A stretch of DNA of 64,000 nt, from contig NZ_VOAK01000022.1 of the NCBI RefSeq assembly GCF_007859075.1, forward strand, positions 186,001 to 250,000, read 5' to 3'. Shown here piece after piece: positions 9,443 to 32,594 of this stretch. Under the pieces are notes generated by a model. The model saw only the letters and a list, made by a program, of their open reading frames with translations, was not told where the DNA came from and did no database searches. Positions within the stretch are counted from its first letter, which is position 1. The number at the start of each line of letters is the position of its first letter. Made by a program: the position numbers and the translations under genes. This DNA comes from Gemmobacter aquaticus (GTDB lineage Bacteria; Pseudomonadota; Alphaproteobacteria; Rhodobacterales; Rhodobacteraceae).

Positions 9443-10072
9443 CTACCAGCGCAGAACACGCCCGCCAGCCAGTGCGCAGAGCCCCGCAACAATCACAATC
9501 GCGGCGCCGTACCAGGTCACGAAGAACAGAGGATTGTCCTGCACGCAAAAGAGCGAATAGCCTGTGGCCACACCCGCAGCAACCGCCAGACCCACCAAGG
9601 CGCCACTGATGCGTGGCGAGGTCGTAGCCCCTCTGGAAAGCCAGCGCAGAGCCAGCGCCGCAGGCAGGGCGGAAAGCAGCAGGATCAACCCCATGCATTC
9701 GGCAAGTGCCGGGACCGATACGTCGGCAAAACGCTGGGCTGGCGGCTGAGAGGCATAGGACCAAATCCAAAGCCCCGTGGCGGCGCCAAGCGGCAAGAGC
9801 AGGGGCAACACGCGCGCATCGCGCTCGGGCCGCGTCAGGCGCAACGCGAGGGCAAGGGCGACAAGGCAAAGAACCGCAGGCAGGACCGTCTTTGTCAGAA
9901 CCACGGGTTTCGACATCGCCTGCATCAGTTCATCGCGCGGCCCGGCAATCAGCAGGAACAGTGCCGACACGACCCCGACCACCGTCACGATCTGCAGCCC
10001 GATGCTGCGCGGGTGAAGGGCGGGCAAGGCGGTCTCGGCTGACAGCCGGTCAATCAATTCATGTGTCTTCAT
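9443..10072 (-). CDS. nrsF: NrsF-family (DUF1109) membrane anti-sigma factor
   Basis: Predicted polytopic inner-membrane protein of 209 residues with about six hydrophobic segments after a short cytoplasmic N-terminus (MKTHELIDRLS). It belongs to the DUF1109/NrsF family, which holds the ECF factor SigF inactive until metal or redox stress. Cysteines fall at 69, 126 (ALAECMG), 176 (YSLFCVQDN) and 199. C126 and C176 are 50 residues apart in conserved-looking motifs, fitting the pair thought to sense stress in Caulobacter NrsF. Its start overlaps the sigF stop (ATGA), so the two are cotranscribed. It converges on the epimerase gene. Confidence 0.9.
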   Translation of the reverse strand: MKTHELIDRLSAETALPALHPRSIGLQIVTVVGVVSALFLLIAGPRDELMQAMSKPVVLTKTVLPAVLCLVALALALRLTRPERDARVLPLLLPLGAATGLWIWSYASQPPAQRFADVSVPALAECMGLILLLSALPAALALRWLSRGATTSPRISGALVGLAVAAGVATGYSLFCVQDNPLFFVTWYGAAIVIVAGLCALAGGRVLRW

Positions 10073-10611
10073 CTCTCGTCTCTCCGGACATGCACGGCCA
10101 TGCGTTTCATCGCACGGTGCAGCGCCACGCGCACAGCGCCCTCGCTTATTCCAAGCCGCTTCCCGACTGCGCCTGCGGTTTCGCCCTCAAGACTGATGGC
10201 GCGGACGATCCCGGCCGATCGCGGATCGAGCTGGCCGAGCAGGTATTCGCTATCATGTGCCACTGTGGGATCATCGATGGCAGTCTCCAGTGACTCGGCG
10301 AAGTCCTCGATCGGCAAATGAACGCGGTTACCGCGACGGCGAAAGGCGTCGACGATCTTGTAGCGCGTGATGGCATAGAGCCAGGGCAGCAACGGCGCGG
10401 CACTATCCCAGGTCTGACGTTTGGCGTGGATCGCGATCAGCACCTCTTGCACGATATCCTCATGGTGGTCAGGCGGCAGCGATGACCCTCGCGCCCGGAC
10501 GATTCCGCGCAGGACGGGGCTGACGGCATGCAGGAACCGGGCATAGGCACGCCCATCCCCTGCAATCGCGGCCCTCAGCAGCGCCGCCCATTCGTCTTCA
10601 CGCGTTGTCAT
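10069..10611 (-). CDS. sigF: ECF RNA polymerase sigma factor SigF
   Basis: Extracytoplasmic-function sigma factor, 180 residues from the ATG at 10611 (MTTREDEWAALL). An upstream in-frame TTG at 10641 would lie within the predicted promoter and is less likely. Region 2 is at about 20-90 (DIVQEVLIAIHAKRQTWD, WLYAITRYKIVDAFRRRG). Region 4 has the helix-turn-helix GETAGAVGKRLGISEGAVRVALHRAMKRM. It is paired with the anti-sigma factor NrsF. In Caulobacter this pair responds to metals such as chromium, cadmium and copper. The upstream GTAAC/CGAA boxes suggest autoregulation. Confidence 0.9.
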   Translation of the reverse strand: MTTREDEWAALLRAAIAGDGRAYARFLHAVSPVLRGIVRARGSSLPPDHHEDIVQEVLIAIHAKRQTWDSAAPLLPWLYAITRYKIVDAFRRRGNRVHLPIEDFAESLETAIDDPTVAHDSEYLLGQLDPRSAGIVRAISLEGETAGAVGKRLGISEGAVRVALHRAMKRMAVHVRRDER

Positions 10612-10623
10612 CGTAGCTGTCCA

Positions 10624-10648
10624 TTCGCCGGAACAGCGCAAGTGTTAC
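10624..10648 (-). promoter_or_regulatory. Predicted SigF-type promoter of sigF-nrsF
   Basis: On the minus strand GTAAC (10648-10644) is followed after 16 bases by CGAA (10627-10624). This resembles the SigF consensus GTAACC-N16-CGAA but with one base less spacing. The 14 bases GGCGAATGGACAGC around the -10 box are identical to those upstream of the bufferin operon. Transcription would start only a few bases before the ATG at 10611, giving an almost leaderless message. Confidence 0.65.
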
Positions 10649-13344: not shown

Positions 13345-13400
13345 GGGGCGCTCCTGTCTGTTGCTCAAACCATGACTGACTGATTCGGCTTGATGGTCGG

Positions 13401-14323: not shown

Positions 14324-14334
14324 TCGGCCCCCGT

Positions 14335-14823: not shown

Positions 14824-14941
14824 GTGGCTCTCCATCGTCCGGATGGCCCACGAATAGCGTTTGGACACTAACCGATTCTTAAGCTGCATCCCTGATCAAG
14901 AAGGCGGATGCGGCAGAAGCCGTCGATGTCGGAGACGTGCC

Positions 14942-17127: not shown

Positions 17128-17384
17128 CCGAAACCCACCCCTTCGCGCTTGTGCCGATCGAAATCACGATCTCTGTCGGAAAGGCCCGGCCGCTGGTGCG
17201 TGATCTGATGCGGCTGCAAAAGGACACTGTTCTGGCGCTCGACCGTCGGATCGAGGACCCGGTCGAGATTTATGTCGGAGACCGCCTGATTGCCCGTGGC
17301 GAGTTGCAGGAGCTTGAGGGAGAGCCCGCCGGACAGTTGGCCGTGCGCTTGCTGGAAGTTGCCCCGATCCGGGGAGAGTTCTGA
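17115..17384 (+). CDS. fliN: Flagellar motor switch protein FliN
   Basis: C-ring subunit of 89 residues containing essentially only the SpoA/FliN domain: VPIEITISVGKARPLVRDLMRLQKDTVLALDRRIEDPVEIYVGDRLIARGE. I prefer the ATG at 17115, with AGGAG six bases upstream; an alternative ATG at 17085 would add ten residues. It overlaps the fliH end by 13 bases and its stop overlaps the fliP start (TGATG). FliM, its usual partner, is not encoded here. Confidence 0.9.
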   Translation: MDDLTETHPFALVPIEITISVGKARPLVRDLMRLQKDTVLALDRRIEDPVEIYVGDRLIARGELQELEGEPAGQLAVRLLEVAPIRGEF

Positions 17385-18106: not shown

Positions 18107-18113
18107 ACGCAGC

Positions 18114-19259
18114 TTATCGCAGGCGCAGATTGGCCCGACCCAGATCGGCGACCGAGCGTGCGCCCATCAACCGCATGTCACGCTGAAGCTCGGCCTGCAT
18201 CAAGGCCAGCGCGCGTTCGACCCCGGCCTGCCCGGCCGCAGCCAGCGGGAACAGGTAGAACCGCCCCAGACCGACAGCCTTTGCGCCCAGCGACAGCGCC
18301 TTGAGAACATGGGTGCCCCGCTGGATGCCCCCGTCGATCATGATGTCGATCCGGTCGCCCACGGCCTGAACGACCTCATCCAGAGCCTCGAACCCGGTGC
18401 GCGACCCGTCAAGCTGGCGACCCCCGTGGTTTGAGAGCACGATCCCGGTACAGCCGATGTCGGCTGCACGCCGTGCATCATCGGCGCTGATCACGCCCTT
18501 CAAACAGAACTGGCCGCCCCATTCGGCAACCATCTGCGCCACGTCGTCCCAGCTCATCGCCGGGTCCAGCATCTCGGTGAAGTAGCGCCCGATGGTCAGG
18601 CTGTCGCCCTTCATGTCGATATGGGCATCGAGCTGCGGCAGGCTGAACTTCTCGTGCGTGACGTAGTTGATGCCCCACATGGGCTTCATGGCGAACTGCA
18701 TCATCCCGCCCAATGTCAGCCGGAAGGGAATGGAAAATCCGGTTCGCAGATCGCGTTCGCGATTGCCGCCGGTGATGCTGTCGACGGTCAGCATCATCAC
18801 CTTGATGCCACTGTTCTTGGCCTTCTGCATCATGGCGCGGTTCAGCCCGCGATCCTTGTGGAAGTAGAACTGATAGACCTGCGGGGTGCGGTGCTTCTGC
18901 GCCAGTTCTTCCATCGAGACGGTGCCCAGCGATGACACCCCGAACATCGTGCCAAACCGTTCGGCCGCGGCGGCGGTTGCGCGTTCGCCCTGATGATGGA
19001 ACAGCCGCTGCAATGCGGTAGGAGAAAGGTAGACCGGCAATGCCAGCTTCTGCCCCATGACGGTCACCGAAAGGTCCACGTCACTGACGCCCCGCAGCAC
19101 ATTCGGGATCAGGTCCACGGCCTCGAAGGCTGCGGTGTTCCGGCGCAGCGTCACCTCGTCGTCGGCGCCGCCGTCGATATAGTTGAAGATCGGGCCGGGC
19201 AGGCGGCGCTGCGCCAGACGGCGGAAGTCGTGAAAGTTGTGGCAATCTGTCAGGCGCAT
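18114..19259 (-). CDS. lldD: FMN-dependent L-lactate dehydrogenase (LldD family)
   Basis: Membrane-associated flavoenzyme oxidising L-lactate to pyruvate with electrons to the quinone pool, 381 residues. Typical alpha-hydroxyacid oxidase motifs: FNYIDGGADDEVTLRRNTAAF, LSPTALQRLFHHQGE, LTVDSITGGNRERDLRTGF, the catalytic loop SNHGGRQLDG and the phosphate-binding IMIDGGIQRGTHVLKALSLGAKAVGLGR. It is the last gene of the rhaR-rhaSTPQ-rhaM-rhaK unit, nine bases after rhaK. That placement fits oxidation of the L-lactate produced from L-lactaldehyde during rhamnose breakdown. Confidence 0.9.
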   Translation of the reverse strand: MRLTDCHNFHDFRRLAQRRLPGPIFNYIDGGADDEVTLRRNTAAFEAVDLIPNVLRGVSDVDLSVTVMGQKLALPVYLSPTALQRLFHHQGERATAAAAERFGTMFGVSSLGTVSMEELAQKHRTPQVYQFYFHKDRGLNRAMMQKAKNSGIKVMMLTVDSITGGNRERDLRTGFSIPFRLTLGGMMQFAMKPMWGINYVTHEKFSLPQLDAHIDMKGDSLTIGRYFTEMLDPAMSWDDVAQMVAEWGGQFCLKGVISADDARRAADIGCTGIVLSNHGGRQLDGSRTGFEALDEVVQAVGDRIDIMIDGGIQRGTHVLKALSLGAKAVGLGRFYLFPLAAAGQAGVERALALMQAELQRDMRLMGARSVADLGRANLRLR

Positions 19260-19268
19260 GGCGGTCTT

Positions 19269-20621
19269 TCAGGTTCTCTGCTGCCAGCGTTTGGCATAGG
19301 CTGTCAGGACTTGTGCCGTGTCGGGGCGTCGGACAGCACGGGTTGCGGGCGCAGTAACGGCCCCGAGGCTGAGAAGTGCTGCGCCAACCGAGGTCCCTGT
19401 GGCCGAGGTTGCGATCTCTATCCCTTCCGGCCACAGGCTCGACAGCATGTCAAGGTAGTCGAGGTTCCGGGCAAAGGGGCCCTCGACGATCACCGGACCG
19501 CGTGCGCCGATCAGGCCAAGGCAGGTATGCGTCATCAGGGCCAGATACCAGGACAGAGCCACCAATCGCGCGCCGTCAGTCCCGGGTTCTGCAGTCCAGC
19601 GCATCTGGTGGGTGGGAAACGGGCCTGATCCGGGCTCTACAGTCGGCAGAAGGGCGATGTCGCGGTCCAGCACCATGTGGCGGTCGCTGTCGTCGGGTTG
19701 CACGGTCGATCCGGCCCTGATCACCTCGAACTCGCGCCCGCCCATGAAGCGGGCCGATGGCACGGGCGCCCCGAGTGCATTCACATTGACCAGCACGTCG
19801 CGGGTGGGGTCCAGCGCCGGGGTTTCGCCCCCGACCGCCATTGCGACCACCCATGTCCCGGTCGAGACAACCGAGAACGCCCCGTCGCGCCCCAGAACAT
19901 GTGGATAGAGCGAGGCATTGGAATCGTGGATACCGACCGTTACTGGCGTATCGGGCGACAGGCCTGTGGCCGCAGCGAGATCGGGTAAAAGATGGCCTAA
20001 CACCGCGTCAGGGCGTTGCGGTGGCGCAATCTTTCCGGCGATGCCGAGCCGGTCAGCCAGATCCGAAAACTGCGCACGCCATGGGTCCCACAGATCGGTG
20101 TGGCAGCCCAGCGAACAGACATCGCAGGCCATCTGCCCGGTCAGCCGCCAGCCCCAGTACTGGGGATAGGTCAGAACATGGGCGAGGCGATCGCTCAGTC
20201 CTGCCTGGGTTTCAAGCAGCCAATGCAATTGAGCGCCAAGGTTGAGACCGTGTGGCAGGCGGGCCGAACCTGTCTGGGCAAAGGCGGGCCGGAGGGCATC
20301 GTAGTCCTGGGCCAGATCGTCCGGGCCGCCGTGTTCGTAGTCGAGCATCGGAGTGGCAAGCGCACCTTTTGCATCCAGCAGCACTGCTGAGGCACCGTGG
20401 GTGGTGACCGAGATCGCATCCACGCCATGCTGGGCATGAAACGCAGCCAGATTGCGGATCAGGAAATCCCAATGCCCTTCAAGGTCGAAATGCGGATAGG
20501 GCGGCCCCGCCAGCACGGTGTTCGGCCGCGTGACGACCGCGATTTCCTGCAGCGAGCCATCCTCGACCAGTGCCAGTTTGGCATTGGTCTTGCCGATATC
20601 GATGACGGCGACGTGCTTCAT
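19269..20621 (-). CDS. rhaK: L-rhamnulokinase (FGGY family)
   Basis: Sugar kinase of 450 residues that phosphorylates L-rhamnulose at O1. N-terminal ATPase fold with phosphate loop [16 protein letters not shown] and catalytic region [15 protein letters not shown]. The C-terminal domain has [29 protein letters not shown] and a final glycine-rich segment [19 protein letters not shown]. It overlaps the rhaM stop by four bases. Order rhaRSTPQ-M-K matches the Rhizobium rhamnose operon, which supports the substrate. Confidence 0.9.
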
Positions 20622-20932
20622 GGCAGATGGAACATCGGAACCAGCGGCACGGCGACGGGTTCGTTGTCAGGGTGTGTCGCCATGATATCGGCCATATGCG
20701 CCCACCATTTCTGCATGACCGGATGGGTCGGCAGATCGGCCATGCCATGATCCTCTGGCCGCCAGAGCACGCCGAACAGCGCGTTGGTTTCAGGGTCCAG
20801 ATGGATCGAATAGTCACGCACCCCGGCCTCGTGCAGCAGCGCGACCAGTTCGGGCCAGATCGCATCATGGCGGCGGCGGTATTCCTCGGCCATGCCGGGT
20901 TTCAGCGTCATGCGGAAGGCGTACTTCTCCAT
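20618..20932 (-). CDS. rhaM: L-rhamnose mutarotase
   Basis: Interconverts the alpha and beta anomers of L-rhamnose. From the ATG at 20932 it is 104 residues, the same length as E. coli RhaM; an ATG three bases upstream is an alternative, and GGAGG lies just before them. Conserved points: [27 protein letters not shown] (catalytic His in RRH), [26 protein letters not shown] and [11 protein letters not shown]. Its start overlaps the rhaQ stop and its end overlaps rhaK. Called rhaU in Rhizobium. Confidence 0.93.
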
Positions 20933-21960
20933 CATTTCCTCCACATCGCCCATAGCCGGGGCAGGGCGATCACCCCGATCAGCAGGGCACCCACGATAAT
21001 CGACATGACGATCCCCGGCACGTTCAGAAGCCCCAAGCCAAAGGTGACGAGTCCCATGACCAGCGCCGCGATGACGACGCCGGGGATCGATCCCGATCCA
21101 CCAAGGATGTTCACACCGCCCAGAACGACCATCGTCACGACCTCAAGCTCGAACCCTGTGGCGATGGAGGGCCGGGTCGATCCGAGGCGCGAGGTGAGGC
21201 AGACCGCCGCGATGCCGCTCATCAGCCCGGTCAGCAGGAACAGGATGAAGCGGATCCGCTCCACCCGGACGCCCGAAAAACGCGCGGCGGTCGCGTTATT
21301 GCCGATGACATAGACCATGCGGCCAAAGTTGGTGCGATGCAGCAGGATGCCGAAGACGATGGCCGCGATGACAAACAGCGCCAGCTCGACGCTGAACACC
21401 CACCAGACATAGCCCTGCCCGAACCAGCCGAAGGCCTCGGGGTAGCCAGTGTAGGCCCCGTCGCCCAGAACGATATAGCTGATCCCACGAAAGAGGCTCA
21501 TGGTTCCGATGGTCACGACGATCGAGGGCAGGCCCAGCCCGGCAACCAGCGCGCCATTGATCGCGCCGCAGACGAGCCCCGTGCCAAGTCCCAGCACCAC
21601 CAGCATCCAGACCGGGGCGCCCGCTGTCATGGCAAGGCCCATCACGGTGGAGGCGAGCGCGATGATAGAGGCCACCGACAGATCGATCTCACCCGCGATG
21701 ATCAGCATCGCCATGGCAAAGGCGATCATCGCTTTCTCGGTAAAGTTGAAGCTGGCGTCCGACAGATTCCACGGATCGAGGAAGTAGGGAGAGGCGATGG
21801 AGTTGGCGATGAAGATCGCGACTGCCACGACAAAGAGCAACATCTCCCAGCTTTTCAGCGCGCGGGCGGCAGGAGAGGTCAGACGGTCAGGGATATGGCG
21901 TCCCGCGCCGGTTTTACCCGCTTGGTCCTGGCCCGCTTGGTCTTCGGTCGTGGCGGTCAT
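20932..21960 (-). CDS. rhaQ: L-rhamnose ABC transporter permease (RhaQ)
   Basis: Membrane permease, 342 residues, with a hydrophilic N-terminus of about 37 residues and then the CUT2 core: [63 protein letters not shown]. Together with RhaP it forms the channel of the rhamnose importer. Overlaps rhaP (upstream) and rhaM (downstream) by a few bases, so the operon is tightly coupled. P/Q naming follows the order in the Rhizobium operon. Confidence 0.9.
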
Positions 21961-22934
21961 GCCCGGTGCTCCGCTTGTTTCAGGATGATGCGGCCCTTCG
22001 GCCCCTGGCCACGGGCGTTGAACGCAATGGCGATCAGGATGGCCGAGCCCGAAATGGCCATCTGCCAGAAGGGAGAGATGCCCACGACCGGAAGCGCGTT
22101 CTTGACGATGCCAAGGAAGAGCGCCCCCATGACGGCCCCCGCGACCGAGCCCGCGCCGCCTGCGATGGCGATGCCCCCGATCACGCAGGCCGCCACGACA
22201 TCAAGCTCGAACCCGCCTGCGATATCGACATAGGCCACGGCATAGCGCGCAACCCACAGATAGCCGGTCAGCCCTGCCAAGGCGCCTGAAAGGACAAAGG
22301 CCATGAACTGCGTCCGGCCCACCGAAATCCCGGTATAGACCGCCGCATGGGGGTTGCCCCCCACGGCAAACAGCGCGCGGCCCGGCGCCGTGCGGTTTAC
22401 AAAGAGCGCAAAGCCCAGAACCACGCCGACCGCGATCCAGGCCATGACCGGCAGGCCAAGGATCACGGCGCGCGGAAAGGCCTTGAATCCCTCGCTCATC
22501 TGATGCGCGTTGATCCATTTGCCATCGGTCAGAACGAAGATGATGCCGCGATAGATCGTCATTGTGCCCAGCGTGACCACGATCGAGGGGATGTTGAGCT
22601 TCCACACCAGAAGCCCGTTCACCGCGCCAAGGCCCGCCCCAAGAGCGACCACCGCAATCAGGATCAGGGGCAGCGGCACGCCGATCCCGTTCAGGATCGC
22701 GGCGATCATCCCGCAAAGCGCGAGGTTCGCTGCGACCGACAGGTCGATGCACTTGGTCAGGATCACCGCCATCTGGCCAAGCGCCAGAATGATCAGTGGC
22801 GAGGTGTCGGTCAGCACATTCGCCAGATTGGCCGGGGCAACAAAGCCCGGAAAGCGGAAGGCGATCACCGCCAGCAGCGCAAGGATGGCCAGCGCCAGAA
22901 TGGCCTCGCGCGATTTCAGGAAGGTGGTCATCAT
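21957..22934 (-). CDS. rhaP: L-rhamnose ABC transporter permease (RhaP)
   Basis: Permease of 325 residues from the ATG at 22934 next to the rhaT stop; a longer open frame exists only as overlap with rhaT. It has the family signature TKCIDLSVAANLALCGMIAAIL, then NIPSIVVTLGTMTIYRGIIFVLTDGKWINAHQMSEGF and GGFELDVVAACVIGGIAIAGG. It works with RhaQ. The rhamnose-type assignment comes from the complete surrounding operon. Confidence 0.9.
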   Translation of the reverse strand: MMTTFLKSREAILALAILALLAVIAFRFPGFVAPANLANVLTDTSPLIILALGQMAVILTKCIDLSVAANLALCGMIAAILNGIGVPLPLILIAVVALGAGLGAVNGLLVWKLNIPSIVVTLGTMTIYRGIIFVLTDGKWINAHQMSEGFKAFPRAVILGLPVMAWIAVGVVLGFALFVNRTAPGRALFAVGGNPHAAVYTGISVGRTQFMAFVLSGALAGLTGYLWVARYAVAYVDIAGGFELDVVAACVIGGIAIAGGAGSVAGAVMGALFLGIVKNALPVVGISPFWQMAISGSAILIAIAFNARGQGPKGRIILKQAEHRA

Positions 22935-22935
22935 C

Positions 22936-24456
22936 TCAGGCGGCCTCCTCGATGCCGACGGCTGCGCGCACAAGGTTTTCCGGCGTCATTGCATCACCGG
23001 TGAACTCGGCGGCGATCCGGCCTTCACGCATGACGATGACGCGGTCCGACATGCCCAGAACCTCGGGAATTTCCGAGCTGACCATGATGACGGCAAGGCC
23101 CTGCGCGGCAAGTTCGGACATGAAGTCATGCACGGCCGCTTTCGATCCGATGTCGATGCCCTTGGTTGGCTCGTCCAGAATGATGACGCGGGGGCGCGTG
23201 GCCAGCCATTTGGCGATCACCACCTTTTGCTGGTTGCCGCCCGACAGAAGCGCCACGTCCTGATCGAGGCTTGCAGCCCTGAGGTCGAGCCGCCGGGTGT
23301 ATTCGCGAGCCAGCGCGAATTCTTCGGCCAGCTGCAGAAAGCCTGCGCGGCTGGTGCGTCCCAGTGAGGGCAGGGTGACGTTCTGGAAGATGGGCAGGCC
23401 CTTGACCGCACCCTGCTTGCCGCGATCCTCGGGCACATAGACGATGCCTGCATCGACCGCCTCGGCGGTGGAGCGGATGACCCGCACGCTGCCCTCAATG
23501 CGGCAGGCGCCTTTTGATGGCTTCGTGATGCCGAAAAGCGCCTGCATCACCTCGGAACGCCCGGCGCCCACAAGGCCGTAGAAGCCCAGAATCTCGCCTC
23601 GGTGCAGGGTAAAGCCGATATCCTCGAATTCGGTCGGGTGGCTGTAGCCCGATACGGTCAGCACCGGCTCGCCAATCGTGGCCGGGCGTTTGGGATAGAT
23701 CTGATCGACCGCGCGGCCCACCATCATCTGCACCAGCCGCGCCTCGGTCACGTCAGCCATGCGGCCTTCGCCCACGAACTGGCCGTCGCGGAACACGGTC
23801 CAGCGATCGGCGATGCGAAAGATCTCGTCGAACTTGTGCGAGATGAACAGGATCGCCTTGCCCTGCTGGCGCAGTTTGTCGACCAGCTCGTAAAGCTCGT
23901 TTATCTCTTTGTGGCTCAGCGCGGCGGTGGGTTCGTCCATGATCACGACGCGCGCGTCGATTGATAGCGCGCGGGCGATGGCGACCAGGTGCTTGGAAGC
24001 GATGCCCAGATCACGCAGCCGCACCTTCGGATCAAGCTCGGCACCGATGGAGGAGAGCAGGCGCTGCGCCTCGGCCTCCATCCGGCGGGTATCGATCAGG
24101 CCGAAACGACCCCGTGGCGCATGGCCGATGAAGATGTTCTCGGCGACCGTCATCTCGTCAAAGAGCACAGTCTCCTGATGGATGGCCGTGACGCCCGCTG
24201 CGCCCGCCGCCTGTGCTGTCGGGAACTGTGTCTCTTTCCCGTCGACTTCAATCGTGCCGTCGTCGGGCTGGTAGATGCCGGTCAGGATCTTGACGATTGT
24301 GGACTTGCCCGCGCCATTTTCGCCGATCAGGGCGGTGACCTGTCCGGGGTAGAGGTCAAGCTGCACGCCATTCAATGCACGCACGCCTGGAAAGGATTTC
24401 GAGATGCCACGAAGGCACAGCACCGGGGCGGTGCCGGGGGCGGATTGCGACTGCAT
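22936..24456 (-). CDS. rhaT: L-rhamnose ABC transporter ATP-binding protein (RhaT)
   Basis: Duplicated sugar ATPase, 506 residues from the ATG at 24456 (MQSQSAPGTAPVL); an 18-codon upstream extension runs through the hairpin region and is unlikely. First domain: Walker A GENGAGKSTIVKIL, signature-like RDLGIASKHLVAIARAL, Walker B VVIMDEPTAAL. Second domain: degenerate P-loop GLVGAGRSEVMQALFG, signature LLSGGNQQKVVIAKWL, Walker B VIILDEPTKGID. In rhizobia RhaT together with the kinase is needed for uptake. Not the unrelated enterobacterial RhaT symporter. Confidence 0.9.
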   Translation of the reverse strand: MQSQSAPGTAPVLCLRGISKSFPGVRALNGVQLDLYPGQVTALIGENGAGKSTIVKILTGIYQPDDGTIEVDGKETQFPTAQAAGAAGVTAIHQETVLFDEMTVAENIFIGHAPRGRFGLIDTRRMEAEAQRLLSSIGAELDPKVRLRDLGIASKHLVAIARALSIDARVVIMDEPTAALSHKEINELYELVDKLRQQGKAILFISHKFDEIFRIADRWTVFRDGQFVGEGRMADVTEARLVQMMVGRAVDQIYPKRPATIGEPVLTVSGYSHPTEFEDIGFTLHRGEILGFYGLVGAGRSEVMQALFGITKPSKGACRIEGSVRVIRSTAEAVDAGIVYVPEDRGKQGAVKGLPIFQNVTLPSLGRTSRAGFLQLAEEFALAREYTRRLDLRAASLDQDVALLSGGNQQKVVIAKWLATRPRVIILDEPTKGIDIGSKAAVHDFMSELAAQGLAVIMVSSEIPEVLGMSDRVIVMREGRIAAEFTGDAMTPENLVRAAVGIEEAA

Positions 24457-24483
24457 TGGGATTGGCCCTGCAATAAGGGGATT

Positions 24484-24508
24484 GGCCCGGCCGGGAGCTG
24501 GCCGGGCC
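24484..24508 (-). terminator. Stem-loop between rhaS and rhaT
   Basis: Perfect 9-bp stem GGCCCGGCC / GGCCGGGCC with a 7-base loop, 18 bases after the rhaS stop. No T-run follows on the coding strand, so it more likely stabilises the rhaS message or causes partial read-through than gives full termination. It occupies the same position in the operon as the ytfQ-ytfR stem-loop. Confidence 0.55.
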
Positions 24509-24526
24509 ATGGGTCAGACCGTCAGA

Positions 24527-25519
24527 TCAGAAGATCGACGAGAACTGATCGATGTTCGAGGCGTCGTAGGTGAAGGGGTCCGCCATGGCGCCTTCCTTGT
24601 TGTCGTCAAGCTTCACCGTGCCCATGCGGCCCATCGGGATCTCGGCACCAGCTTCGGCCTTTGCAGTGCCGTTCGACAGGTTGTAGGCGATCATGGTCGC
24701 GGCATAGCCCAGATCGATCGGGTTCCAGATCGCAAACGACTTGGATGCGCCCGACTTCACATGGCCCGCCATTTCCGAGGGCAGGCCAAGGCCGGTCACA
24801 TTGACCGATCCGATCTTGCCTGCATCGGTCACCGCCTGTGCCGCAGCCACGATACCGACCGAGGTGGGCGCGATGATCGCCTTCAGGTCGGGATAGGTCT
24901 GCAGCAGGCCCTGGGTTTCGCGATAGGACTTGTCGGCCAGGTCATCGCCGTAAACGGTCGCGACAATGTTGATGCCCGGATAGTTCGGCAGCACCTTCTT
25001 GGCCTCTTCGATCCAGACGTTCTGGTTGGTCGAGGTGGTGGTGGCCGAGAGGATCGCCACATCGCCGCCATCGGGCAGATGGTCTGCCGCAAGCTTGACG
25101 ATGGTGTTACCGATCAGCGCCGAGGACGAGGGGTTAAGGTGCATCAGGCGGCCATCGGGGGCTACGCCCGAATCCCAGCTGATGACGGTGATGCCGCGGT
25201 CCATTGCTTTTTTCAGCGTGGGCACCAGCGCGTCGGTGTCGTTGGCCGAAACCGCAATCGCATCCACCTTCTGCGCGATCAGGCTGTTGATGACCTCGAT
25301 CTGGCCTTCTGCGGTGGTATCGGTCGGACCGGTGTAGATGATCTCGACATCGCCAAGCTCCTTGGCGGCCTCTTCGGCGCCCTTGGCTGCGGCTTCAAAG
25401 AAGCCGATCCCGAGTGCCTTCACGACCAGCGCGATGCGCTTGGTCTCGGCATGGGCGCCGGTCGCCATCAGCACGGTTGCCAGTGCCGCCGTGGTCAGTG
25501 CCTTCTTCAGAATGCTCAT
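24527..25519 (-). CDS. rhaS: L-rhamnose-binding periplasmic protein (RhaS)
   Basis: Substrate-binding protein of the importer, 330 residues. The start at 25519 follows GGAGGAG and gives a good signal peptide (MSILKKALTTAALATVLMATGAHA). The mature protein begins ETKRIALVVKALGIGFFEAAAKGAEEAAKELG and has the usual periplasmic-binding fold with VISWDSGVAPDGRLMHLNPSS, ATTTSTNQNVWIEEAKKVL and DLKAIIAPTSVGIVAAAQAV. Longer upstream reading frame is rejected because it lacks a signal and ribosome site. Second gene of the rhaR operon. Confidence 0.92.
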   Translation of the reverse strand: MSILKKALTTAALATVLMATGAHAETKRIALVVKALGIGFFEAAAKGAEEAAKELGDVEIIYTGPTDTTAEGQIEVINSLIAQKVDAIAVSANDTDALVPTLKKAMDRGITVISWDSGVAPDGRLMHLNPSSSALIGNTIVKLAADHLPDGGDVAILSATTTSTNQNVWIEEAKKVLPNYPGINIVATVYGDDLADKSYRETQGLLQTYPDLKAIIAPTSVGIVAAAQAVTDAGKIGSVNVTGLGLPSEMAGHVKSGASKSFAIWNPIDLGYAATMIAYNLSNGTAKAEAGAEIPMGRMGTVKLDDNKEGAMADPFTYDASNIDQFSSIF

Positions 25520-25572
25520 GTGGTCTCCTCCCTGAGCGTTACCCGGTTTCGCCGGGGCTGTGTTCGGTCGCG

Positions 25573-26382
25573 TCAGTCCTGCTGGGCGCGAAGCGTTCGG
25601 TCCGAGGCCGGAACCTCGGCCACGATCAGCCGCACCTCTGCCGCCTCCAGCATCTGGGCGGCACGGTCGTCGATGCGGTCGTCGGTGATAACGGTATGGA
25701 TGCGGGCCAAGGGGCACAGAAGCAGGCTTGATCGCTGTGCAAACTTGGAACTGTCGGCCAGCACGATCAACTCATCCGCCTGTCCGATCAGCTTCTGCTC
25801 GGCCTGGATCAGAAGCGGGTCTCCCTCCATCAATCCAAGCGGGCCAAGTCCACGACATCCCATGAACATGCGGCGGGCATAGAAATGCCGGCTGCCATCC
25901 TCGTCAAAGGGCGACAGGATGATGTTCTGCTCGCGGTAGATCGCCCCTGCCGGCAAGAGCACGGTGTTCTTGGAATGCTTCAGAAGGTGTTCCGCAATGG
26001 GAAAGCTGTTGGTGAAGACCTGCAGCCGCTTGGCGGTCAGCGGGTGGACCATCTGAAAGGTCGTCGTGCCCCCGTTGATGATGATCGCATCGCCATCGGC
26101 ACAAAGATCGACCGCCGCGCGGGCAATCGCGCGCTTTTCGGCGGAATGGATGGTTTCCTGTACCGAGAATGGCCGCGCGTTGATGCCGACGAACGAAGGT
26201 GGAGCAATGGCTTCGGCGCCACCACGCACGCGGCGCAGCTTTTTCTGCATGTGAAGCTGCGCGATATCGCGCCGGATCGTGGCTTCCGATGCGCCTGTCA
26301 GCTGGCACAGATCAGGCACCGTGACGACGGGCCGTTCCTGAACTGCGGACAGAATGATCCTGTGGCGTTCGCTTTCGTGCAT
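25573..26382 (-). CDS. rhaR: DeoR-family regulator of the rhamnose genes (RhaR)
   Basis: 269 residues from the ATG at 26382, which has GGGAGGA upstream. N-terminal DeoR helix-turn-helix (RPVVTVPDLCQLTGASEATIRRDIAQLHMQKKLRRVRGGA, about 17-56). C-terminal sugar-phosphate sensor domain with GDAIIINGGTTTFQMV, VFTNSFPIAEHL, LPAGAIYREQNIILSP and a DSSKF motif. It is probably a repressor relieved by a phosphorylated rhamnose metabolite. Unrelated to the AraC-type RhaR of E. coli. Adjacent phased repeats at 26414 and 26470 are its likely sites. Confidence 0.9.
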   Translation of the reverse strand: MHESERHRIILSAVQERPVVTVPDLCQLTGASEATIRRDIAQLHMQKKLRRVRGGAEAIAPPSFVGINARPFSVQETIHSAEKRAIARAAVDLCADGDAIIINGGTTTFQMVHPLTAKRLQVFTNSFPIAEHLLKHSKNTVLLPAGAIYREQNIILSPFDEDGSRHFYARRMFMGCRGLGPLGLMEGDPLLIQAEQKLIGQADELIVLADSSKFAQRSSLLLCPLARIHTVITDDRIDDRAAQMLEAAEVRLIVAEVPASDRTLRAQQD

Positions 26383-26413
26383 CGGTTCCTCCCTGCAGCC
26401 GAGAGTGGTGCGC

Positions 26414-26443
26414 GATTCGATCATTGTCAATCATTTTCAATCG
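26414..26443 (-). promoter_or_regulatory. Predicted RhaR operator, rhaR side (three phased repeats)
   Basis: Read on the minus strand it is three consecutive 10-base units, CGATTGAAAA / TGATTGACAA / TGATCGAATC, sharing TGATYGA. The exact one-turn spacing fits a DeoR-family protein binding as an oligomer on one face of the helix. The array ends 31 bases upstream of the rhaR start and would control rhaR-STPQMK-lldD. Confidence 0.7.
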
Positions 26444-26469
26444 CAGAACTTCATTCTGCATCTGCATAA

Positions 26470-26499
26470 TGATTGAATCTGATCGAATATGATTGACTT
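26470..26499 (+). promoter_or_regulatory. Predicted RhaR operator, rhaD side (three phased repeats)
   Basis: Plus-strand units TGATTGAATC / TGATCGAATA / TGATTGACTT, again at exactly 10-base spacing and in opposite orientation to the array at 26414. The 26 bases between the two arrays (26444-26469) would hold the divergent promoter elements. The array lies 66 bases before the rhaD start and should control rhaD-rhaA. Confidence 0.7.
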
Positions 26500-26565
26500 T
26501 CGGTCAGACACTGGCATGTTCTTCCCCGGAGGCGCGGCGAATGTCCCGCGCAGATGGAGGACAGG

Positions 26566-28668
26566 ATGACCACGACCCCCGCCGCCAACCGGCTTGAAAA
26601 CCTTTGGGATGACGCGACGGCTGCGTCGATGAGCGAATCGGAAAAGCTGCTCTATCGCTCGAATCTTCTAGGGTCGGACAAGCGCGTGACGAACTATGGC
26701 GGCGGCAATACCTCGGCCAAGGTGATGGAGCGCGATCCCCTGACCGGCGCTATGGTCGAGGTGCTGTGGGTCAAAGGCTCCGGCGGGGACATCGGTTCCA
26801 TGAAGATGGACGGATTTTCAACGCTTTACATGGACAAGCTGCGCGCACTGAAGGGCAAGTACCGGGGCGTTGCCTTCGAGGATGAGATGGTCGGCTATCT
26901 GCCGCACTGCACCTTCAACCTGAACCCGCGCGCCGCCTCCATCGATACGCCGCTGCATGCCTATGTGCCGAAGAAACATGTCGATCACGTCCACTCGGAT
27001 TCGATCATCGCGATTGCTGCTTCGGTCAATTCTCGCGAACTGACGGCAGAGTTGTTTGGCGACGAGATCGGCTGGCTGCCGTGGAAGAAGCCGGGCTACG
27101 AGCTGGGCCTCTGGCTTGAGAAGCTTGCGACCGAGAACCCCCAGATGCGGGGCGCGGTGCTTGAAAGCCATGGGCTTTTCACCTGGGCGGATGACGCCAA
27201 GGACTGCTACCTGACCACGCTCGACATCATCAACAAGGCGGCCGCCTGGCTGGAAGCCAGAACTGCGGGCAAGCCTGCGTTCGGTGGCCAGAAGCTGCCG
27301 ACCCTGCCGGCGGATCAGCGCCGTGCCGTCGCCGCCCGCCTTATGCCGGCGATTCGCGGGCTGATCTCGCAGGATCGGCACAAAGTGGGCCATTTTGACG
27401 ACCAGCCTGCCGTGCTGGAGTTCGTGGGTTCACAAATGCTGCAAGATCTGGCGCCGCTTGGCACGTCTTGCCCCGATCACTTCTTGCGCACCAAGATCCG
27501 CCCGCTGGTCGTCGATTTCGACCCGGAAAATCCGGATCTGGATGCAACCCTTGCCGGTCTCTCCGCCGCGGCCGAGGCGTATCGCGCCGACTATGCCGCC
27601 TATTACGACCGCTGCAAGAAATCCGACTCGCCCGCGCTGCGCGACCCGAATGCGGTGGTCTGGCTGGTTCCCGGCGTGGGCATGATCACCTTCGCGCTCG
27701 ACAAGGCGACGGCGCGCATTTCGGGTGAGTTCTATGTGAATGCGATCAACGTGATGCGCGGCGCATCAGGTATCTCGACCTATCAGGGCCTGCCCGAGCA
27801 GGAGGCCTTTGACATCGAGTACTGGCTTCTGGAAGAGGCCAAGCTGCAACGGATGCCCAAGCCGAAAAGCCTTGCCGGGCGGGTGGCGCTGGTGACGGGG
27901 GGTGCAGGTGGCATCGGATCAGCGACGGCCGAACGTTTCCTGAAAGAGGGGGCCTGCGTTGTTCTGGCCGATATCGATGGCAAGGCGGCCTCTGATGTTG
28001 CAGCCGGTATGGCCAAGGTCTTTGGCGCCGATCAGGTTCGCGCGGTGCAGATGAATGTCACGGACGAAGTGCAGGTGATTGGCGCCTATGCCGATGCTGC
28101 GGTCGAGTTTGGCGGCGTGGATATCCTTGTCTCGAACGCGGGCATCGCATCCTCGGCACCCGTCGAGGAGACCACGCTCGCGCTTTGGAACAAGAACATG
28201 GACATCCTCTCGACCGGCTATTTTCTGGTCAGCCGCGAGGCGTTCAAGACCTTCCGCACGCAAGGCATCGGCGGATCGGTGGTGTTTGTCGCCTCGAAGA
28301 ACGGGCTCGCCGCCAGCCCCAATGCCAGCGCCTATTGCACGGCCAAGGCCGCCGAGATCCATCTGGCGCGGTGCCTCGCGCTGGAGGGCGCCGAGGCTGG
28401 AATCCGCGTCAACGTGGTGAACCCCGATGCCGTGCTGCGCGGATCAAAGATCTGGTCGGGCGAATGGCTGGATCAGCGCGCCTCGACCTACAAGACCGAC
28501 AAGGAGGGGCTGGAAGAGATGTATCGCCAGCGTTCGATGCTGAAGCGGTCGGTCCTGCCCGAGGATATCGCCGAGGCGGCCTATTTCTTTGCCTCTGAAC
28601 TTGCGGGCAAATCGACCGGCAACATTCTCAATGTCGATGCCGGCAATGTTCAGGCGTTCACGCGATAA
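26566..28668 (+). CDS. rhaD: Bifunctional L-rhamnulose-1-phosphate aldolase / L-lactaldehyde dehydrogenase
   Basis: Fusion protein of 700 residues (RhaEW type; rhaD in rhizobia). I chose the ATG at 26566, after GGAGG; a second in-frame ATG lies 12 bases upstream. Residues about 1-420 are a class II aldolase domain: NYGGGNTSAK, zinc-binding HVDHVHSDS and ESHGLF. Residues about 430-700 are a short-chain dehydrogenase with cofactor loop VTGGAGGIGSATAERF, SNAGIASSAPV and catalytic YCTAK. It splits L-rhamnulose-1-phosphate to DHAP and L-lactaldehyde and oxidises the aldehyde to L-lactate. First gene of the rhaD-rhaA unit. Confidence 0.93.
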   Translation: MTTTPAANRLENLWDDATAASMSESEKLLYRSNLLGSDKRVTNYGGGNTSAKVMERDPLTGAMVEVLWVKGSGGDIGSMKMDGFSTLYMDKLRALKGKYRGVAFEDEMVGYLPHCTFNLNPRAASIDTPLHAYVPKKHVDHVHSDSIIAIAASVNSRELTAELFGDEIGWLPWKKPGYELGLWLEKLATENPQMRGAVLESHGLFTWADDAKDCYLTTLDIINKAAAWLEARTAGKPAFGGQKLPTLPADQRRAVAARLMPAIRGLISQDRHKVGHFDDQPAVLEFVGSQMLQDLAPLGTSCPDHFLRTKIRPLVVDFDPENPDLDATLAGLSAAAEAYRADYAAYYDRCKKSDSPALRDPNAVVWLVPGVGMITFALDKATARISGEFYVNAINVMRGASGISTYQGLPEQEAFDIEYWLLEEAKLQRMPKPKSLAGRVALVTGGAGGIGSATAERFLKEGACVVLADIDGKAASDVAAGMAKVFGADQVRAVQMNVTDEVQVIGAYADAAVEFGGVDILVSNAGIASSAPVEETTLALWNKNMDILSTGYFLVSREAFKTFRTQGIGGSVVFVASKNGLAASPNASAYCTAKAAEIHLARCLALEGAEAGIRVNVVNPDAVLRGSKIWSGEWLDQRASTYKTDKEGLEEMYRQRSMLKRSVLPEDIAEAAYFFASELAGKSTGNILNVDAGNVQAFTR

Positions 28669-28679
28669 GGATGGCGAGC

Positions 28680-29915
28680 ATGACCTATGATTCCGCGCGC
28701 GCTGCCTTTGCCGATTGGGGCGTCGATACCGAGGCCGCGATCAAGACGCTGCTTTCCATCCCGATCTCGGTTCATTGCTGGCAGGGCGATGATGTCGGCG
28801 GGTTTGAACGCAAGACAGGCGCCTCGGGGGGCGGCATTCAGGCGACGGGCAACTACCCCGGTCGCGCGCGCAATGCCGCCGAGCTGCGCGCGGATCTTGA
28901 GTTCGCCTATAGCCTCATCCCCGGCATGCACCGTCTGAACCTGCACGCCTTTTACCTTGATACCGATGAGACGCCTGACCGTGACGCCATCGAGTACCGT
29001 CACTTTGCCACTTGGGTTGACTGGGCGAAGGAACAGGGGCTGGGACTTGATTTCAACCCGACCTTCTTTGCCCATGCCAAGGCCGACGACAACCTGACGC
29101 TCTCGCACCCCGATGCGGGCATCCGTGCCTTCTGGATCGAGCATGGTCGCCGCTGTCGCGAGATCGCAGCCCGCATGGGGGCCGAGCTTGGCAGTCCTGC
29201 GGTGAACAACATCTGGGTGCCTGACGGATCGAAGGACATCCCGGTTGACCGTATGGCTGCGCGGCGCAGGCTCGAAGCCTCGCTCGATGCCATGTTGGCC
29301 GGGGATCTGCCAAAGACCCAGATCATCGATGCGGTGGAATCGAAGCTGTTCGGTATCGGGGTTGAGGCCATGACCGTCGGCAGCCACGAGTTCTACATGG
29401 GCTATGCCATTCGTCGTGGAACGGCGCTCTGCCTTGACATGGGGCATTTTCACCCGACCGAAAGCGTGGCCGACAAGCTGAGCGCGGTGGCCCTGTCGGT
29501 GGATCACATGCTGCTGCATGTCAGCCGACCGATGCGGTGGGACAGCGATCACGTGGTGCTGCTGAATGACGATCTGCTGGCAATGGCGCAGGAGCTGGTC
29601 TTTGCTGATCTTCTGGCGCGCACCAGTATCGGGCTCGATTTCTTCGATGCCACGATCAGCCGGACGGCTGCCTGGGTTCTGGGCGTGCGCAACATGCAAA
29701 AGGCGCTTCTGCGCGCATTGCTTCTGCCGCAGGACAGGCTCAAATCGGCTGAAGCCGCGCTTGATTACACTACGCGTCTGGTTCTGACCGAAGAGGCCAA
29801 GGACCTGCCCTTTGCTGCCGTCTGGGCCGAGGTCTGCGCCCGCGCCAATATGCCAACGGGTGCCGCGCTGCTCTCGGACCTGGATGCCTATCAGGCCAGC
29901 GTCAGCGGGCGGTAA
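28680..29915 (+). CDS. rhaA: L-rhamnose isomerase
   Basis: Metal-dependent isomerase converting L-rhamnose to L-rhamnulose, 411 residues from the ATG at 28680 (an in-frame ATG at 28671 is nearer the upstream stop and badly spaced from AAGG). Close match to E. coli RhaA: SVHCWQGDDVGGFE, GGIQATGNYPGRARNA, LGLDFNPTFFAHAKADDNLTLSH, NIWVPDGSKDIPVDR, AVESKLFGIGVEAMTVGS, ALCLDMGHFHPTE, SRPMRWDSDHVVLLND. This is the RhaA type and not the RhaI type common in rhizobia. Eleven bases after rhaD. Confidence 0.95.
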   Translation: MTYDSARAAFADWGVDTEAAIKTLLSIPISVHCWQGDDVGGFERKTGASGGGIQATGNYPGRARNAAELRADLEFAYSLIPGMHRLNLHAFYLDTDETPDRDAIEYRHFATWVDWAKEQGLGLDFNPTFFAHAKADDNLTLSHPDAGIRAFWIEHGRRCREIAARMGAELGSPAVNNIWVPDGSKDIPVDRMAARRRLEASLDAMLAGDLPKTQIIDAVESKLFGIGVEAMTVGSHEFYMGYAIRRGTALCLDMGHFHPTESVADKLSAVALSVDHMLLHVSRPMRWDSDHVVLLNDDLLAMAQELVFADLLARTSIGLDFFDATISRTAAWVLGVRNMQKALLRALLLPQDRLKSAEAALDYTTRLVLTEEAKDLPFAAVWAEVCARANMPTGAALLSDLDAYQASVSGR

Positions 29916-29920
29916 TCGCA

Positions 29921-29948
29921 GTGACGCGCCCGTGTCAGGGCGCGTCAC
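29921..29948. terminator. Strong stem-loop between convergent rhaA and bufD
   Basis: Perfect 11-bp stem GTGACGCGCCC / GGGCGCGTCAC with a 6-base loop, beginning six bases after the rhaA stop and 28 bases from the end of the doxX gene. No T-run is visible on either strand. Because the genes converge, it may end or protect both transcripts. Confidence 0.5.
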
Positions 29949-29975
29949 CGGCGCAACCGGGCCTGCGTTTGCGCT

Positions 29976-30449
29976 CTATCTGGCAGCCCGGTTTGCAGCG
30001 GCGCCGGACCCCTCTGCCCCGACATCAAGCCCCAGAAGCCGGTCTAGAGACCAAGCCCCCGGTCCGCCCGCGATCAGGGCAAAGAGCGCCGCAGCCCAAA
30101 GGCCATGGGTGATCCAGGCATCGGGATAGACGAAGATCTGGATCACCGCGGTCATCCCCAAAAGGCCAAGTGCGGCAAATCGCGTGCCCAGCCCGATGAT
30201 CATCAGCGCGGGCAGCAGATGCTCCGCCGTGGTGGCGAGAACCGCCGCGAGGTTCGACGGGAGGATCGGGAGGGCATATTCATGCTCAAACAGAAACCAG
30301 GTCGACTCCTTGATGGAGAACAGCCCCTCGACCTTGGTTCTGCCGGATTGCAGGAAGACAATCGCCGGGAAAACGCGCAGCGCCAGTGCCGCGACATTCC
30401 ACGGAATACGGTCGAACAGCGCATTCAGAGTGCGGATTTGGGCGCGCAT
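29976..30449 (-). CDS. DoxX-family membrane protein (BufD-type)
   Basis: 157 residues with about four membrane segments ([71 protein letters not shown]). The first segment and the hydrophilic YPDAWITH loop are typical of DoxX proteins found as the last gene of bufferin operons. Its function there is not established; membrane redox chemistry or metal handling has been suggested for relatives. It overlaps bufC by 25 bases, so it belongs to the buf operon. Confidence 0.82.
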
Positions 30450-31207
30450 TCCGGGGTCTCCATTGCATCGAGGATTGCCCCGGACTGGATCAGCCGCAGG
30501 ACAAGGGGTTGGGGGTCATGTTGCGGCTCGGCCCAATGCGCCATCTCGGCAGCGGCCATGAGGGTCGCCCCCTGGCCAAGCTGCTCGATCAGTGCGGCGT
30601 CTCCGGCCGAGATTGCGAAAACCGGCACGTTGAAGGCCCGGTCGCGCAGGATGAGCGCAATCTCGGGCTGTGTCTGGGTCAGCGGTGCAGGCGCGCTGCC
30701 GGGCTGGTTGAGCGTCCAGATCGAGACGGCCGGGCTGGTCAGGCGCAGCACCTGTACCGACGGGTGCAGCCGCAGGCGCAGCCGCGACGGGTCGGCGCTG
30801 GCAAAGACCTCGGGCGCCGCCGGTGGGGCGTCGGCGGCATGAAAGGCGACGCCGCGGGCAAACTCGATCGCCGCCACATCGGCCATGTAGGGATAGGTCT
30901 GCAGCGGGGGGAAGCCTGCCAGAAAGTCCGGAAAGCTGTCGCCCCATTCCAGAAGAACCGGCGAGCGGGGCCGTTTGGCCTCGGCATAGAGCCGCGCCAT
31001 GGCGGCAAAGAACTCTGCCCCGACGAGGCGCTGGATCACGGGATACCGCCGGGCCAGAGCCTCGGTCAGGCTGCTTGCGACATTGTTGCGATAGACGGCA
31101 AAACGACGTTCGGTCTCGTCCGGTGCGCAAGCGGTCACGCCGGGCGGCAAAGTGGCGCCCTTCAGGCTGGCGTCAAAGGCCGCGATGAATTCACGATGCG
31201 CGTGCAA
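30425..31207 (-). CDS. bufC: BufC-type partner protein (DUF2063, HvfC/BufC family)
   Basis: 260 residues from a TTG at 31207 placed seven bases after AGGGGGGAA; an upstream in-frame ATG at 31288 would overlap bufB by 98 bases and looks unlikely. The N-terminal DUF2063 domain contains [30 protein letters not shown] and [22 protein letters not shown] followed by [14 protein letters not shown]. In bufferin and related systems this protein pairs with the MNIO enzyme and recognises the precursor peptide. The C-terminal half is beta-rich. It overlaps bufB by 17 bases. Confidence 0.85.
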
Positions 31208-32057
31208 GCGCTGTTCCCCCCTGATGATCGAGCATCGACTGCGCGCGATGTGCCTCGGCCAGAAGAACCGGCCATTCGGGCAGATCATTGTCCCATTCGA
31301 TCAGGGTGGGGCGCGGACCGCCGCGCGCAATGGCCTCGGCATAAAGTACCCAGACCGGCTCTGCCACCGGGGTGCCATGCGCGTCGATCAGAAGCGGCCC
31401 CGACGGCAGTTCCTCGGCGTCATGGCCGCCAAGATGGACCTCTCCGACCATCTCCAGCGGAAATGCCGCCAGATAGGCGCGGGCATCCATGCGATGGTTG
31501 GTGGCCGAAACGAACACATTGTTCACATCGAGCAGCAGACCGCAGCCAGAACGCCGGGCGACTTCGGTCAGGAAATCAACTTCGGGGATCGTCGACTGTT
31601 CGAACAGCACATAGGTTGAAGGGTTTTCCAGCAGCATGCGTCGGCCCAGAACCTCTTGCACCTCATCGACATGGTCGCAGACGATGGCCAGGGTCTCTTC
31701 GGTATAGGGCAGCGGCAGCAGGTCGTTCAGATAGTCGGCACCATGGCTGGACCAGGCCAGATGTTCGGAAAAGCTCTCGGGCTCATAGCGGTCGCAAAGG
31801 GTACGCAGGCGCATCAAGTGATTGCGGTTCAGTCGCCCAGGACCGCCGATGGACAGACCTACGCCATGCAGCGACAAGGCGTAGTCAGCGCGCAGCGCGG
31901 CAAGCTGTGCATGCGGCAGGCCACCGGCGCCCATGTAGTTCTCGGCGTGCACCTCGAAGAAACCGACGGACGCAGCACTTTGACGGATTGCCGCGAAATG
32001 CTCGGGCTTGAAGCCCAGTCCAGCGCGGTTTGGCAGGCCTTGCATCGTGTCACCCAT
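31191..32057 (-). CDS. bufB: MNIO-family bufferin maturase (DUF692)
   Basis: Predicted TIM-barrel multinuclear non-heme iron oxidase, 288 residues. Metal-binding positions of the family can be seen in order: His64 ([12 protein letters not shown]), Glu98-His99 (FSEHLAW), Glu144-Asn145 (LLENPSTY), Asp177 with Asn179/180 (LLDVNNVF), His208 and His212 (EVHLGGH), Asp225/His227 (IDAHG) and Glu254 (LIEWDND). Such enzymes convert peptide cysteines into thiooxazole-type heterocycles. Its substrate is almost certainly the BufA peptide encoded 51 bases upstream. The start could be the ATG at 32057 or, less likely, 32045. Confidence 0.9.
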
Positions 32058-32108: not shown

Positions 32109-32417
32109 TCAGGAGGCCATGTCGCGCATCAGGGGTTCCAGAGAGCCGGCGCGTGCCATGCCATCGCTGGCTGCGGGCAGTTCCATCGTTGCGCAGGTGC
32201 CCGCCGGAACCAGCTTCCAGGCGTTGCCCTGATAGTCCACCTTGGATGTACCGGCGCAGGTCGTTCCCGGGCCTGCCGCGCAGTCGTTCTGGCCGGCAAG
32301 CGCCACGCCGTAGCACTTTTCCATTTCGCCTTCGGCGCTGGCGGTGGTTGCAGCCGCCAGTGTCAATGCGCAAGCAAGCGATGCGCCAAGGCCAAGGGTC
32401 GATTTCATAAGGGTCAT
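32109..32417 (-). CDS. bufA: Bufferin-type RiPP precursor (BufA1/DUF2282)
   Basis: 102-residue exported peptide. The start at 32417 has GGAG six bases upstream and gives a signal peptide ([20 protein letters not shown]... to ASA, about residue 28). The mature part has the bufferin core: [17 protein letters not shown], then TTCAGTSKV and WKLVPAGTC. This puts four cysteines at 35, 46, 54 and 75. In Caulobacter such cysteines are modified by the MNIO enzyme and the product binds copper in the periplasm. A 27-residue tail after the last cysteine lacks cysteine and seems long for the family. Larger open frame upstream has no support. Confidence 0.92.
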
Positions 32418-32469
32418 GTCGTTCTCCATGTCAGACCAGGTGGTCCTTCCATCGGGCCACGGCTGTCCA

Positions 32470-32495
32470 TTCGCCCCTTTAGCCGCCGACGTTAC
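32470..32495 (-). promoter_or_regulatory. Predicted SigF promoter of the bufferin operon
   Basis: Minus strand GTAAC (32495-32491), 17 bases, then CGAA (32473-32470), which equals GTAACN-N16-CGAA, the SigF consensus spacing. The -10 region GGCGAATGGACAGC is identical over 14 bases to that in front of sigF. Transcription would begin about 45 bases upstream of the bufA ATG. Confidence 0.75.
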
Positions 32496-32594
32496 GCCGC
32501 TCACGATTTCGTGTTCCTTGGGGGTGGTTCGCCCGACGGCGGCCAAACCGGGCCGACACTGTTCGCGCAGCCCGGATTGGTCTATCGCTAAAGC

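Follow-up and report, generated by a model that had tools for sequence, protein, structure and literature searches.

Predicted SigF-type promoters upstream of sigF-nrsF and of a bufferin operon in Gemmobacter aquaticus and related Rhodobacteraceae

Two sites in a 64-kb stretch of Gemmobacter aquaticus DNA (the window; C22:186001-250000 in a genome of 3,986,766 bases), one upstream of sigF-nrsF and the other upstream of the bufferin operon bufABC-doxX, are very probably SigF (ECF16) promoters from which SigF, held by NrsF and freed by stress, would drive both operons. It is almost certain that transcription at both is started by one and the same stress-response sigma factor. Sequence comparison across the family shows the sites, that they are conserved and that they depend on sigF-nrsF being present; it extends the Caulobacter SigF-bufferin regulon to Gemmobacter and its relatives among the Rhodobacteraceae, sharpens the motif and ties the bufA promoter to whether a genome carries the sigma factor.

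Both operons lie on the reverse strand. sigF (10069..10611) encodes an ECF sigma factor with Pfam Sigma70_r2 and r4 domains over cut-off and an NCBIfam PRK12512.1 score of 208.8 bits (cut-off 198). Directly downstream, with a 4-nt frame overlap, nrsF (9443..10072) encodes a membrane anti-sigma factor matching the NrsF/DUF1109 family (PF06532) at 128.6 bits (cut-off 26.8) and scoring 59.5 against the narrow NCBIfam AntiSigF_NrsF model, far under its cut-off of 300; it carries Cys 69, 126, 176 and 199, of which C126 and C176 occupy two sensor-type places in a context that by eye is like that of relatives. The bufferin operon comprises bufA (32109..32417), encoding a DUF2282 (Buf1-type) bufferin precursor (PF10048, 93 bits; cut-off 22.4); bufB (31191..32057), encoding an MNIO bufferin maturase (NCBIfam MNIO_BufB, 385.2 bits; cut-off 310); bufC (30425..31288, start uncertain, the open frame running from 31288 and the scanned part covering 30425-31207), encoding a DUF2063 partner; and, as its last gene, doxX (29976..30449). 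BufA has a predicted signal peptide, read from the sequence, and five cysteines, one in the apparent signal region and four outside it. BufC (PF09836) and DoxX (PF07681) were over the Pfam cut-offs and below those of the NCBIfam HvfC and HvfX models. A search for Buf1-type precursors turned up a single DUF2282 gene.

The predicted promoter of bufABC-doxX (32470..32495, reverse strand) consists of a -35 box GTAAC (32491-32495) and a -10 box CGAA (32470-32473) separated by N17, and that of sigF-nrsF (10624..10648, reverse strand) of GTAAC (10644-10648) and CGAA (10624-10627) separated by N16. Each -10 box is extended by TGG (32467..32469 and 10621..10623, reverse strand), so that the sites read GTAAC-N17-CGAATGG at bufABC-doxX and GTAAC-N16-CGAATGG at sigF-nrsF. 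As GTAAC-N15..18-CGAAT they are the only two matches in the window (32469-32495 and 10623-10648, reverse strand), against a shuffle mean of 0.07 and two matches in 0 of 100 shuffles. The sequence GGCGAATGGACAGC is exact at both 10616-10629 and 32462-32475; because its search tolerated two mismatches, and at least two such matches arose in 33 of 100 shuffles, only the exactness is informative. The boxes and the 14 identical bases around the -10 box described in the sequence-only reading of this DNA are therefore both present. That reading had further called the two loci, 22 kb apart in the window, otherwise unrelated, which did not hold: sigF-nrsF lies within about 4 kb of bufA in 7 of the 8 genus genomes having both, and the same holds for 12 of the 17 further family genomes with both, the remaining 5 carrying them on different contigs. 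Adjacency is thus usual in relatives, and the split of the window differs from most. The interval between the two loci (10700-30000) contains flagellar genes, with FliF confirmed, and an operon for sugar use, with an FGGY kinase and an ABC ATPase confirmed, which we read as of rhamnose type.

The upstream regions of bufA were then compared with the presence of NrsF. Of 149 family genomes, 23 have NrsF (PF06532; 22 of these over the cut-off) and 106 have DUF2282, including 18 of the 23 with NrsF, so that mere co-occurrence is weak at family level; within the genus, 8 of 11 genomes carry both NrsF and bufA and the remaining 3 carry neither. The 106 family genomes and 7 more of the genus gave 113 with bufA, of which 112 were scorable: G098 was dropped since its upstream sequence is missing at a contig end, leaving 87 without NrsF, and one bufA was scored per genome (G007 and G100 carry two). 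The motif GTAAC-N16/17-CGWA was present upstream of bufA in 17/25 genomes with NrsF and 0/87 without (Fisher p 2e-14, relatedness ignored). Two of the 25, G118 (partial) and G129 (below cut-off, with two stops), were kept despite doubtful NrsF matches, and without both the exact motif is found in 17/23. When one mismatch was allowed the counts were 20/25 and 12/87, the latter mostly at other distances; requiring in addition a G at the third base after the -10 box (+3 G) gave 19/25 and 2/87. With CGAA only and N15-18, they were 15/25 and 1/87, the single one having N15 at -265. No CGAA-type site (≤1 mismatch, N15-18) was found in G083, G118, G129 and G130 of the 25, and the NrsF calls of G083 and G130 are not doubtful. 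The regulon joining sigF to bufferin production, proposed from the shared promoter type, is strongly backed by this comparison, although the link itself is not new.

A wider set was obtained from an alignment of 20 of the 27 collected SigF proteins, which gave 519 relatives among the sequences of genome_contigs, the best 80 of which were studied as named loci, partly overlapping the family and genus genome set. Among these best 80 of 519, bufA is present at 56, with the motif at ≤1 mismatch in 47/56; in the remaining nine, of which four have Pararhodobacter in their titles, GTAAC is by eye in place and CGTC-NTG sits 17 nt on. The sigF motif is present in 66 of the 80, a few at unusual distances, and absent from 14, namely nine loci in which bufA lies upstream on the same strand and five others, three of which start at a contig end. 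All nine same-strand loci have the bufA motif and no sigF motif, with doxX directly before sigF in five and about 1.2 kb between them in four; this is the pattern expected if the bufA promoter also serves sigF, and we infer that the genes may be cotranscribed. The four window genes that flank the two halves had no matches in these best 80 of 519 loci. One record (L192), titled Exiguobacterium profundum, carries a Rhodobacteraceae-type sigF-buf sequence and is probably a mislabelled metagenome assembly.

Beside the bufA promoter lies a second conserved element, the inverted repeat ACACG-AAAT-CGTGA (32501..32514, reverse strand), which ends 5 nt upstream of GTAAC. It is possible, though rather less than probable, that bufA is controlled mainly by another regulator acting at this repeat with a housekeeping sigma factor, SigF being an added second input. 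CACG-N4-CGTGA (≤1 mismatch) was found upstream of bufA in 18/25 genomes with NrsF and 65/87 without, and in control regions of the same genomes in 0/25 and 1/87; CAC-N5-CGTGA was found at bufA in 37 of the 56 named loci (from the best 80 of 519). WCACG-N4-CGTGA occurs in five places in this genome, namely at bufA, upstream of a fasciclin-domain gene (L307), beside an L,D-transpeptidase gene that precedes a CobW-type gene (L310), upstream of an OmpR-type response regulator (L311) and in one unclear context. Against control chiefly from the repeat, genomes carrying sigF keep the GTAAC and CGWA boxes, and in Caulobacter the buf promoter has been reported as solely SigF-dependent (PMC3511200). No regulator gene for it was found adjoining bufA among the bufA loci, and no title or abstract opening dealt with the CACG-N4-CGTGA repeat or a bufA hairpin in a literature search barely aimed there, the absence being weak evidence.

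A class II tRNA synthetase gene (class from Pfam, run on one representative), probably thrS by our own reading (L113 and similar), lies directly upstream of bufA in 70/113 genomes, 68 of them without NrsF and the others being G129 and G135. This synthetase-linked bufA is a second, SigF-free locus type, and G135 joins both types, having a synthetase-linked bufA with GTAAC-N18-CGTA. Since the SigF-less copies beside the synthetase gene keep the repeat, the repeat would be ancestral, and we tentatively suggest, as something that could well be so without being probable, that in Rhodobacteraceae the promoter of bufA works as a module with two inputs: an ancestral, family-wide putative CACG-N4-CGTGA operator for a regulator, a SigF promoter beside it adding envelope-stress control where sigF-nrsF is carried, and a covarying leader hairpin, present with promoters of either type, tuning mRNA stability or translation. 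The putative operator and the hairpin are leads on bufferin control in the many family members that lack SigF.

Returning to the SigF promoters, the motif was refined from 85 loci (74 sigF and 57 bufA promoters; nonredundant by identical spacers only). The third base after CGAA, which was not used in site selection, is G in 93% of sigF and 98% of bufA promoters. GTAAC is followed by A in 68% of sigF sites and by G in 79% of bufA sites, and the spacing is N17 in 53/57 bufA promoters, and N16 in 30/74 and N17 in 44/74 sigF promoters. The earlier claim that the 14 shared bases extend the known consensus thus survives in part: CGWA-N-K-G is conserved across the 85 loci, whilst ACAGC is not, and the full 14-mer was rejected as a motif beyond CGWA-N-K-G. 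The exact 14-mer identity might alternatively have arisen by promoter duplication or gene conversion when a divergent locus was split, which we consider unlikely. Identity between the sigF and bufA sites over the 10 flanking bases averages 4.70 within genomes (n=46) and 3.76 between genomes (n=2070), and this genome is extreme in having 10/10 identical, a value reached by 0 of the 2070 between-genome pairs, three of which reach 9; against such an origin, the two sites differ in class-specific ways, sigF having GTAACA with N16 and bufA GTAACG with N17, and their spacers are unlike.

Across the whole genome, GTAAC-N15..18-CGAAT has 5 matches (reversed control 6), of which only the bufA and sigF sites have N16 or N17. 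GTAAC-N16/17-CGWA has 12 matches (reversed control 137), and the refined motif GTAAYR-N15/16-CGWANKG has 4, two being the sigF and bufA sites (reversed control 17); the reversed words of these latter two motifs differ in composition, and the values 137 and 17 are therefore no fair null. Since the core motif is not enriched genome-wide (5 vs 6), the evidence rests on position and conservation, and although the core is no commoner than its reversed control, the idea that a large genome produced these two matches by chance can be dismissed, as it is already contradicted by the comparative data and by the position of the sites, their linkage to sigF-nrsF and the conservation of a +3 G that played no part in the site search.

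A search for third SigF targets in this genome yielded no convincing candidate. Most of the 10 other GTAAC-N16/17-CGWA matches lie inside long ORFs on either strand. The two remaining refined-motif matches are L177/L267 and L179/L278. The former lies between two merR-type genes and is weak as a target, no clear gene following it in the direction in which it points; the latter is antisense to two genes that we read as rpsB and tsf, close to where they meet. Also weak are L181, which precedes an ABC transporter gene by about 43 nt, and L180, at one frame's 3' end and ahead of a second frame; neither has the +3 G. A genus scan with the refined motif gave 45 places, 30 of which became loci and were examined; in SigF-carrying genomes the motif was found at bufA in 8/8 and at sigF in 7/8, counts that are not independent as these sites helped derive it. 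Independent matches precede an msrP-type gene in both G157 and G151, 32-33 nt from its ATG, and a DsbD_TM/CcdA-type gene in G151, at a distance of 20 nt; the Pfam assignments (Oxidored_molyb for the msrP type) come from the G151 proteins alone. In G150 and G154, msrP is preceded by a site with one mismatch. The msrP of the present genome (L299) has no site at ≤1 mismatch, and by eye a decayed GTAAT-N17-CGAC stands at the syntenic place. msrP is reported as a SigF target in Caulobacter (PMC3511200), and a DsbD-like gene as co-regulated by EcfF (PMC3420878).

The sigF ATG starts 12 nt after CGAA. Among 64 named sigF promoters with distinct spacers (from the best 80 of 519), 52 have their homology-aligned start 10-14 nt after CGAA and 54 have an ATG 8-17 nt after it. 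If transcription begins as far from the -10 box as was measured for ecfF, 6 nt downstream (PMC3420878), the leader would be only some 4-8 nt long, and the sigF mRNA is probably near-leaderless. Near the bufA mRNA start lies a possible leader hairpin, GTGG(C)CC...GG(A)CCAC (32440..32460, reverse strand), which covaries in relatives and folds weakly in this genome (z -0.71, stem run 4). The mean folding z of 59 distinct bufA leaders was -2.56, with z below -1 in 54/59 and the 5' arm at a median of 9 nt after CGAA, hairpin windows and scores having been set after the leaders had been viewed. An RNAalifold consensus on a MAFFT alignment (40 of 50 selected leaders) contained no pairs; because MAFFT ignores structure and the loops vary, a swap test was used in its place, in which arm complementarity was 5.04 with own and 3.88 with swapped 3' halves (0/2000 permutations; n=50). 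The leaders of genomes without NrsF (mean z -1.10, n=87; control regions -0.29, -0.24) and with NrsF (-1.24, n=25; control regions -0.58, -0.09) have similar z, so the hairpin may go with bufA and not with SigF.

Taken with what is reported for relatives, the preferred reading of the two sites as SigF promoters would operate as follows. NrsF, a membrane protein with two conserved cysteines, would hold SigF inactive until stress, which by analogy may be copper, chromate, cadmium or peroxide, inactivates it. Freed SigF would bind GTAAC(A/G)-N-CGWA-N-K-G, raise its own operon via the near-leaderless transcript and switch on bufABC-doxX, the product of which, judged from relatives, would be a copper-binding modified peptide. 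Metal or redox sensing by NrsF is an extrapolation from systems in which inactivation of the anti-sigma factor by metal or oxidant frees the sigma factor, as supported in relatives (PMC3511200, PMC3420878).

The closest known system is that of Caulobacter crescentus, in which the reported SigF-NrsF regulon comprises CC3252-3253, CC3254-3257, CC2907-2905 and CC2748, with support from 5'RACE, lacZ and mutant data, and SigF drives DUF2282-DUF692-DUF2063-DoxX from a GTAACC-N16-CGAA promoter (PMC3511200); copper is reported to induce this regulon (PMC8224329). Common to both are the ECF sigma factor, NrsF, the DUF2282-DUF692-DUF2063-DoxX operon and GTAAC-N-CGAA promoters (PMC3511200), whilst here the loci are 22 kb apart, bufA has N17, one DUF2282 gene was found and the msrP site is decayed. 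Caulobacter sigF is described as not strongly autoregulated, with a second factor also driving it (PMC3511200). In Sinorhizobium meliloti, RpoE7-EcfR7 (ECF16) adjoins the divergent genes SMb20527-20530, unlike the arrangement here, and RpoE7 raises the expression of these four genes, which are described as orthologues of CC3254-3257, the promoter fusions reported there showing no response to peroxide, cadmium or chromate (PMC6180224). Published work on Caulobacter and S. meliloti thus already contains the SigF-bufferin link, with the genes named by DUF or locus, and the novelty of the present case is largely one of sequence detail. The ECF16 systems EcfF-OsrA of Bradyrhizobium and BcrS-AbcS of Brucella share the promoter type, and the OsrA cysteines C129/C179 correspond to C126/C176 of NrsF here; unlike here, the targets named in the available portions of these sources include msr-type repair genes with no mention of a bufferin operon (PMC3420878, PMC8315932). 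The EcfF transcript start is reported to overlap the annotated ATG (PMC3420878). Finally, Buf1 clusters are described that, like the one here, hold a DUF2282 precursor, MNIO, DUF2063 and DoxX, with sigma factor and NrsF genes also reported (PMC12452194).
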